In this document: positions 15,242 through 16,922 of the stretch, piece by piece
Numbering within the stretch: the first letter of the stretch is position 1
How the letters are laid out: each line of letters starts with the position of its first letter
Source: a virus
Length of the DNA stretch: 30,053 bases
IMG/VR virus record: IMGVR_UViG_3300042303_000009
Location: 1-30,053 of that record
Direction: 5' to 3' (one strand)
Program-made: the position numbers and the translations under genes
The notes under the pieces: model-generated
The model's database searches: none
The model's input: the letters and a program-made list of their open reading frames with translations, nothing else
Told to the model about the DNA's origin: nothing

Positions 15242-15538
15242 ATGATCCCTCTTCTAACTACTCTGTCGGTGATTACCTCTTGGTATGGTCCTGGTTTCCA
15301 TGGTAACCTTACTGCGAGTGGATCTCGATACAATCAAAACGGCCTTACTGCAGCGCACAAGACACTCCCCTTTGGCACACGTTTACGTACTTGCTTTAAG
15401 AGGTGTGCCGTGGTGACGGTCAACGATCGTGGTCCCTACATTCATGGTAGGAGCCTTGATCTCAGTAAAGGTGCGGCTGATGCTATCGGTCTCACTGCCT
15501 CTGGAGTTGGACGAGTCTCTGTTACTCGACTTAACTAA
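15242..15538 (+). CDS. RlpA-like double-psi beta-barrel protein
   Basis: 98-residue protein that is essentially one RlpA domain: TSWYGPGFHGNLTASGSRYNQNGLTAAHKTLPFGT...VTVNDRGPYIHGRSLDLSKGAADAIGL. Bacterial RlpA is a septal lytic transglycosylase acting on denuded peptidoglycan. H39 (AAHKTLPFGT) and D62 (VNDRGPY) correspond to residues considered catalytic in Pseudomonas RlpA. The domain is complete but there is no SPOR domain and only 12 N-terminal hydrophobic residues, too few for a full signal peptide. ATG 15242 has no good ribosome site and overlaps (ATGA) the end of a 7-codon ORF from 15222, so coupling is possible. The role could be lysis, wall penetration or a virion part; the sequence does not decide. 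Confidence 0.85.
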   Translation: MIPLLTTLSVITSWYGPGFHGNLTASGSRYNQNGLTAAHKTLPFGTRLRTCFKRCAVVTVNDRGPYIHGRSLDLSKGAADAIGLTASGVGRVSVTRLN

Positions 15539-15544
15539 CTACAC

Positions 15545-15898
15545 ATGGTTACAATCGCGGATTCCGCATGGATGGCTGGACTCTTCGAGGGCGAAGGGTC
15601 TATATCCATTAGTCAGAAAAAAGGTTACTGCTACCTTCAACTAGTCAGTACTGATCATGACGTTCTACTTAAGTTCGCCGGGTTAGCTAATTGCACTAAC
15701 AACAAAATTACTTACTGCCCGCGTCGGTCACACCAAAATAAAGATGCTTGGAAGTGGCAAGTTGGTAATAGAAAAGATGTTACTCGACTGCTCAATCTAA
15801 TGCTACCGTATCTGGGTGATCGTCGTGCCCATAAGGCATTAGATGTTTTCGATTTTTACGATGACCGCAACTTTAACTCTACCCCAGAAAGAGTCTAA
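15545..15898 (+). CDS. LAGLIDADG-type homing endonuclease
   Basis: 117-residue free-standing homing endonuclease with one LAGLIDADG-like motif, [17 protein letters not shown] (residues 7-23), whose acidic residue in GEG would bind metal. The rest fits phage members of the family: [50 protein letters not shown]. Single-motif enzymes act as homodimers and cut a long site, copying themselves into uncut relatives. It lies immediately upstream of psbA, and its last 38 bases are the first codons of psbA in another frame. psbA itself is uninterrupted, so no intron is seen here. Confidence 0.88.
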
Positions 15899-16922
15899 TA
15901 TCTGGGATAAGTACCTTAGCTGGGTAACCAGTACTAATAATCGTCTTTATATCGGACACTTTGGGGTGATCATGATCCCCTGTTTACTGGCTGCAGCTAT
16001 CTGCTTTATTATCGCTTTTGTAGCAGCACCTCCAACGGATATTGATGGTATTCGTGAACCAGTATCAGGCAGCCTTCTTTATGGAAACAACATCATATCG
16101 GGAGCCGTCGTTCCGAGCAGCAATGCCATCGGACTACACTTCTACCCAATTTGGGAAGCTAATTCACTTGATGAATGGCTCTACAACGGGGGTCCATTCC
16201 AACTTACAGTGTTCCACTTCCTCATTGGCATCTATGCTTACATGGGACGAGAGTGGGAACTTAGCTATCGACTAGGAATGAGGCCTTGGATCTTTGTCGC
16301 ATACTCTGCTCCCGTGGCGGCTGCTACCGCTGTATTCCTTATCTATCCCTTTGGTCAAGGAAGCTTCTCTGATGCTATGCCTTTGGGTATCTCCGGCACC
16401 TTCAACTACATGCTGGTGTTCCAGGCTGAACATAACATTCTTATGCACCCCTTCCATATGCTTGGAGTCGCGGGTGTATTTGGTGGGTCTTTGTTTAGCG
16501 CGATGCACGGCAGCCTGGTTACGTCTAGTCTTGTTCGTGAAACGACTGAAGAGATCTCTCAGAACTATGGGTACAAGTTCGGTCAAGAAGAAGAGACTTA
16601 TAACATCGTTGCCGCTCATGGTTATTTTGGACGTTTGATCTTCCAGTATGCATCTTTCAATAATAGCCGTAGCCTTCACTTCTTCCTTGCTGCTTGGCCT
16701 GTTGTTGGTATCTGGTTTGCTGCTTTGGGCGTTTCGACCATGGCTTTCAATCTTAATGGTTTCAACTTTAACCAAAGCCTTGTCAGCTCTGAAGGGAAAG
16801 TGATTAACACTTGGGCTGACATTCTTAACCGAGCTGGTCTTGGTTTTGAAGTGATGCATGAACGCAATGCTCACAACTTCCCACTTGACCTTGCAGCACA
16901 CACTGCACCTATCATTGGTTAA
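15861..16922 (+). CDS. psbA: Photosystem II D1 protein
   Basis: 353-residue D1, the core photosystem II reaction-centre subunit that binds P680, pheophytin, QB and the oxygen-evolving cluster and is rapidly photodamaged. Phage copies replace host D1 during infection. The whole conserved chain is present: [158 protein letters not shown]. Numbering is offset +1 from standard D1. Residue 131 is Glu (canonical 130). The tail after the CtpA cleavage Ala (345) is only 8 residues. ATG 15861 gives the normal N-terminus; an ATG at 15843 would add six odd residues. The start lies inside the endonuclease gene and has no clear ribosome site. Confidence 0.98.

Follow-up and report, generated by a model that had tools for sequence, protein, structure and literature searches.

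A LAGLIDADG endonuclease gene that overlaps psbA and probably spreads among cyanopodoviruses by intronless homing

Phage T4 offers an established case of intronless homing, in which the free-standing Seg endonucleases are encoded by optional genes lying beside conserved genes, and a break made outside the insertion point leads to co-conversion of flanking markers (PMC2988022, partial text). At psbA, the gene for the photosystem II protein D1, the described case is F-CphI of the T4-like phage S-PM2: a free-standing homing endonuclease with an Endo VII motif, encoded beside psbA, that cuts psbA of phage S-BM4, a gene without an intron, in a scheme where the donor psbA is protected by one (PMC6083498, partial text). 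For S-SRM01, endonucleases borne on introns within psbA have been suggested, and for S-CBWM1 they have been reported (PMC8557907, partial text). More generally, homing endonuclease genes (HEGs) lie where stretches exchanged between phages begin or end (PMC10448857, partial text), and cyanophage psbA is known to be mosaic and to recombine without any HEG (PMC3900582, partial text). In the main text of a comparison of 20 cyanopodovirus genomes, no word starting with ‘homing’ occurs (PMC4646655). A LAGLIDADG HEG at podovirus psbA is not described in the titles and abstract openings found, a coverage in which subscription journals are mostly not included.

The window, meaning the whole stretch of DNA analysed here, is a virus record of 30,053 bases whose genes are arranged as in a T7-like cyanophage, and it carries a HEG directly upstream of psbA (Table 1). 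Like the Seg genes, it is an optional gene beside a conserved one. Unlike them, it is of the LAGLIDADG type, occurs in T7-like cyanophages, is known here from sequence alone, overlaps its presumed target gene and occupies the old start of that target. It shares with F-CphI the free-standing position adjoining psbA, but differs in motif, in phage type and in the state of the donor: there is no intron, and the donor psbA differs by a whole 5′ block.

Table 1. Features of the HEG–psbA region, in window coordinates
Feature	Position	Strand	Basis
rlpA-like gene (DPBB, lytic transglycosylase-type), next to the HEG on the left; the moving block has its left border at the end of this gene	15242..15538	+	Pfam DPBB_1 80.5 bits; alignments to HEG-free relatives
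Leader, before the psbA ATG in HEG-free relatives and before the HEG start in the window	15530..15544	+	Comparison with HEG-free leaders, e.g. L032, L040
Single-motif LAGLIDADG homing endonuclease gene (HEG), 117 aa	15545..15898	+	Open frame, Pfam, predicted structure, fold comparison
LAGLIDADG motif of the HEG, residues 9–20	15569..15604	+	Sequence and alignment of relatives
psbA (photosystem II D1), intact, intron-free, 353 aa, one open frame	15861..16922	+	Pfam Photo_RC 291.7 bits; Rfam
Overlap of HEG end and psbA start, 38 nt, psbA in +1 frame	15861..15898	+	ATG at 15861, HEG stop ends at 15898
psbA 5′ block swapped together with the HEG; right border at psbA nt 180–240 in seven pairs	15861..16100	+	Alignments of pairs with and without the HEG
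Tyr18 codon of psbA (Phe17 of solved D1)	15912..15914	+	psbA comparison, alignment to solved D1
His33 codon of psbA (Trp32 of solved D1)	15957..15959	+	psbA comparison, alignment to solved D1

A sequence-only reading of this region had proposed a LAGLIDADG homing gene next to an intact, intronless psbA, and both parts are borne out. The HEG protein matches Pfam LAGLIDADG_3 at 26.8 bits (cut-off 22.5), with LAGLIDADG_1 at 21.6 bits lying under its cut-off of 23.1, and psbA is a single frame in a window where no Rfam family, hence no Rfam intron, matched anywhere. Residues W9 and G12–G18, E15 and E17 included, are identical in 34/34 aligned relatives; E17 is, from what is known of the family, presumably the catalytic acid. 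The AlphaFold model has a pLDDT of 90.6, its least certain residues being 115–117, which are encoded in the psbA overlap. The closest solved folds are I-CvuI (Z 13.9, rmsd 2.6, 106 residues aligned), I-CreI and I-MsoI, with Z of ∼12–14 over 105–108 residues. These three enzymes are intron-encoded and longer than the free-standing HEG protein, whose predicted fold is otherwise alike. The motif with its conserved acidic residue and the predicted fold both place the protein among the LAGLIDADG homing endonucleases. PHROG 5046, labelled HNH, also matches it, and many relatives in phage records are annotated as HNH endonucleases; Pfam and the predicted fold of the window member are those of LAGLIDADG, and the HNH label looks wrong. 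Values of dN/dS (0.01–0.08 in eight pairs; 0.02–0.13 against the window where computable, nine loci) indicate that the protein is under purifying selection, and the frame is open in all 22 loci in which the gene is docked at psbA.

The sequence-only reading was also correct that the last 38 bases of the HEG are the first 38 nt of psbA in another frame (ORF 15545–15898, ATG 15861). All 22 loci examined with a HEG at psbA (the window, L009–L026, L203, L204 and L242) have such an overlap, of 32–50 nt and always +1, although 22 is not a count of independent cases because several loci are near-duplicates. Its presence in every one of them takes the overlap beyond chance. That reading had taken an overlap common to all relatives with no sign of mobility as speaking against it; half of this holds, in that the overlap is common to all carriers, but there are clear signs of mobility.

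A search with the HEG gave 22 loci, 18 of them with psbA directly downstream (L009–L026); L027 and L029 stop shortly after the HEG or inside it, and L028 and L030 have no psbA match. Among phage records the HEG protein had 151 matches, all below 60% identity, and none of the 60 listed has psbA annotated under the match. Searching with a profile of the family (best 80 of 240 matches) added L203, L204 and L242 at psbA. Across the psbA-docked loci psbA is the constant partner of the HEG, while the gene upstream differs: it is mostly rlpA, with other genes in L022–L024 and L026 (by eye, lysozyme-like in L023 and membrane-protein-like in L026).

When presence and absence were compared across close relatives, as had been suggested, relatives lacking the HEG were found in which psbA begins at the position taken by the HEG start in the window. 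DSL-LC07, the nearest annotated phage, has no HEG, and its psbA begins four bases after the end of rlpA; the alignment of this phage with the window runs to 15543 and resumes from 15920. The leader TTAACTAACTACAC directly precedes the HEG start codon in the window and the psbA ATG in HEG-free L032 and L040, and the HEG therefore sits at the old psbA start. In L020 compared with L116 a slightly different leader has likewise been taken over by the HEG. Searches anchored on the capsid, with the best 80 matches kept from each, yielded 160 loci, 62 of them with a psbA start and one of these unreadable; the HEG is present in 4/61, on contigs also found by the HEG search, and absent in 57/61. In nine or more HEG-free loci the capsid protein is 98–100% identical to that of the window. 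DSL-LC07 and the 57 loci without the gene show it to be optional and free-standing between conserved genes, as in intronless homing elements. In the HEG-free L109, a 522-nt insert of unrelated small ORFs (1156–1677) lies between rlpA and psbA, and the D1 allele, GHAGV, is near that of L242, which has the HEG; the insert possibly replaced a HEG.

Recombination tracts starting at the HEG, which the sequence-only reading had put forward as something to look for, were found in pairs of loci with (HEG+) and without (HEG−) the gene. Between L116 (HEG−) and L020/L017 (HEG+), rlpA and psbA from nt 178 to ∼420 are nearly identical, and these stretches enclose the HEG and the first 177 nt of psbA, the latter with an identity of 59–67% per 90-nt window. 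Further 3′, L017/L020 psbA is 78–83% identical to that of L116 at nt 450–630 and 97–100% at nt 720–990; because the sequences differ again and then match, these genes are mosaic beyond the 5′ block. Six further pairs, for which the HEG− partner was the closest match in the psbA 3′ end, again have the right border at psbA nt 180–240. The left border is the HEG start within ∼45 nt in 6/7 pairs, the left flank of L015/L058 being too divergent to tell. In 7/7 pairs, then, psbA has been replaced from nt 1 to nt 180–240, a co-conversion tract in the neighbouring target gene. For L022–L026 the best HEG− identity in the psbA 3′ part is 78–81%, which provides no close HEG-free partner for border mapping.

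The contrast holds in a control on 72 unique psbA (14 HEG+, 58 HEG−; 5′ part, nt 1–177). Where the 3′ identity is at least 95%, the 5′ identity is 56–73% in HEG+/HEG− pairs (mean 65, n = 48), compared with 86–100% in HEG−/HEG− pairs (mean 90, n = 15) and 75–100% in HEG+/HEG+ pairs (mean 85, n = 14), the pairs in each group being non-independent. Below 80% 3′ identity, HEG+/HEG− and HEG−/HEG− pairs are hardly apart in 5′ identity. The proposal that the overlap ensures co-transfer of psbA thus stands for the first fifth of the gene (nt 1–180/240) and not for the whole, as the rest follows HEG-free relatives; for the same reason, whole-psbA transfer is ruled out. Within psbA, window positions 16131–16310 (nt ∼271–450) are 97–99% identical in DNA to HEG-free DSL-LC07, with adjoining windows at 80–89%, which may reflect a recombination hotspot or synonymous-site constraint.

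The exchanged block includes two D1 positions, 18 and 33, that correspond to Phe17 and Trp32 in two aligned solved D1 chains. Tyr18 and His33 occur together in 14/14 unique HEG+ psbA and also in L203 and L242; the 58 uncultured HEG− psbA have Phe/Trp in 40 cases and Tyr/His in 18. The residue was read directly in 13 isolate records and is Trp in all, that of the remaining records being deduced from identity, and two H-type (His33) peptides had best identities of 84% and 80% against 512 phage records with psbA. The suggestion that psbA had spread from phage to host found no support: the exact H-type pattern occurs in 0 cyanobacterial genomes of the collection, in a scan with a single pattern that misses GHAG/GHSG and had no W-type (Trp33) positive control. 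Its two hits lie outside cyanobacteria, one on a podovirus-like contig under a Porticoccaceae MAG and one unrelated. The contig L192 (PABE01000131.1), filed under a Porticoccaceae MAG, has hli, an H33-type psbA and capsid genes, and is cyanopodovirus-like. A literature search on D1 W32 found no paper.

Trees of the 5′ and 3′ parts were built from 70 unique psbA of at least 900 nt (10 HEG+, 19 HEG− H33, 41 HEG− W33), in an analysis whose bootstraps had not settled. In the 5′ tree the W33 and H33 types split at 100/100, with every HEG+ sequence on the H33 side and three changes of HEG state. In the 3′ tree the HEG+ sequences are scattered, with eight changes of HEG state, at least six of them forced. 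Synonymous differences per site (pS) were measured from the window in nine loci, and are the fair comparison for the HEG because purifying selection inflates nucleotide identity. The HEG pS is 0.32–0.61 in eight loci and 0.86 in L025. Against L011 the HEG has a pS of 0.47, other genes outside the psbA 5′ block 0.19–0.46 and the psbA 5′ part 0.56; against L020 the HEG again has 0.47, and other genes range from 0.42 (rlpA) to 0.77. Judged by synonymous sites in the nine loci and by the 3′ tree, HEG divergence is decoupled from that of the core genes, and the element has a history unlike that of the genome, as intronless homing entails; plain vertical inheritance is ruled out by the same two lines of evidence. 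The 87% nucleotide identity of the HEG between window and L020, where core genes are at ∼69–76%, is weakened as proof of recent transfer, since much of it reflects purifying selection. The psbA 5′ blocks of the window, L011, L013 and L020 differ by a pS of 0.52–0.64. With blocks this old, and HEG+ sequences that do not form a single clade in the 5′ tree, the carriers do not represent recent copying from a single donor.

The HEG belongs to the same sequence family as the phage LAGLIDADG genes of PHROG 5046, and other cyanopodovirus members adjoin a capsid or exonuclease gene; the family looks as if it had three docking places. Among the best 80 of 240 profile matches, judged by neighbouring matches, 22 loci have a member directly upstream of the capsid gene (L207, L209–L211, L213, L215–L226, L228, L229, L231, L237, L241) and 13 have one directly upstream of the exonuclease gene, preceded by DNA polymerase on contigs that include it (L235, L236, L238, L240, L246, L247, L252, L255, L256, L259, L260, L263, L267); L007 is also exonuclease-docked. 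L258 groups with the exonuclease-docked members in the tree, and its contig ends before the exonuclease gene. The cyanopodovirus NATL2A-133 has a member directly upstream of its capsid or exonuclease gene. Unlike these, the psbA-docked members form a clade of their own (97/88), and only at psbA is the downstream gene seen to have had its 5′ end replaced. This behaviour is not taken to be general, because in L005/L237, the one close pair at the capsid gene with a related HEG, the capsid 5′ end is unchanged.

It is likely that the HEG is a free-standing, single-motif, I-CreI-like endonuclease spreading among cyanopodoviruses by intronless homing, with psbA as its target. The protein, presumably as a dimer, would in a mixed infection cut the 5′ end of a HEG-free psbA somewhere within about nt 1–180, the donor being spared by its different 5′ sequence. 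The break would be widened and then repaired from the HEG+ genome, the copied tract ending on the left where homology starts, at the old psbA start, and on the right in a very conserved stretch 180–240 nt into psbA. The recipient would gain the HEG, which takes the original psbA leader and start position, together with a different psbA 5′ end, now starting within the HEG. Counted against homing are the left flank of L015/L058, which is poorly matched, the non-independence of close pairs, the three changes of HEG state in the 5′ tree, the age of the 5′ blocks of different carriers, the further mosaicism of L017/L020 psbA, the unchanged capsid 5′ end in L005/L237, a scan for pseudo-palindromic sites with nothing above chance and the want, for L022–L026, of a HEG-free psbA relative above ∼81% in the 3′ part.

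Recombination of psbA known to occur without a HEG also counts against homing, and is the starting point of another explanation, namely that psbA 5′ ends were swapped through conserved stretches by homologous recombination of the ordinary kind, which selection on D1 may have favoured, with a linked HEG that has lost its cutting activity carried along. Such recombination is on record (PMC3900582, partial text), and the H-type 5′ ends found in 18 of the 58 HEG-free psbA have also moved between psbA backbones, the W class showing nine changes in the 3′ tree, at least seven of them forced. A passive passenger is harder to reconcile with a reading frame kept open in every psbA-docked locus at a dN/dS of 0.01–0.08, or with a left border that coincides with the old psbA start across varied backgrounds, and hitchhiking of this kind is unlikely, if the most serious competitor to homing. 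Very strong purifying selection is equally what would be expected of a domesticated nuclease, kept because it benefits the phage, for example through cleavage of psbA in hosts or competitors or through translational coupling to psbA, its mobility being of lesser importance; that the HEG has the psbA leader and psbA starts inside the HEG would suit this too. The patchy presence of the gene (4/61 capsid-anchored loci, all four also HEG-search finds) and the abundance of intact HEG-free psbA make such a role distinctly improbable.

The sequence-only reading had offered collaborative or marker-type homing. The marker-type part stands, in that a 5′ block is exchanged with the HEG. Collaborative homing with a psbA intron, the HEG being a remnant or partner in the manner of F-CphI, would share the target gene and the adjoining position (PMC6083498, partial text), but the window psbA is one whole open frame with no intron found to protect a donor, and a LAGLIDADG protein is not an Endo VII-motif one; an intron remnant is ruled out for the window, and the idea as a whole has next to no probability.

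Under intronless homing, the protein presumably cuts psbA, and its site can be sought among the differences between carriers and likely recipients. When 10 HEG+ psbA are compared with 21 of the 41 W-type psbA, picked because they are likely recipients, fixed differences within nt 1–240 fall at nt 19, 28, 53 and 97–99. The last of these is codon 33, the sole run of adjacent fixed differences, and a cut site there would fit. No 20, 22 or 24 bp window of psbA exceeded the 95th percentile of shuffles in a scan for pseudo-palindromic targets, and no cut site is named because no pseudo-palindrome rose above chance. A more tentative and rather doubtful reading is that the viral D1 with Tyr18 and His33 is a footprint of the HEG: the cut site would lie over the Trp32 codon, a donor with CAY would be immune, and homing would have spread the loss of Trp32 and Phe17, with HEG-free H33 phages as descendants or recombinants that kept the immunity without the nuclease.

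That cyanophage psbA is mosaic was known; the HEG now offers a specific candidate for what drives the exchange, with one border set at the psbA start and a 5′ block replaced over much the same length in a number of phage backgrounds. If homing is the correct explanation, the sequence of a photosynthesis protein that infected cells produce is in part determined by a selfish gene; if the footprint reading were also true, a selfish DNA cutter would choose which photosystem II protein the viruses make.
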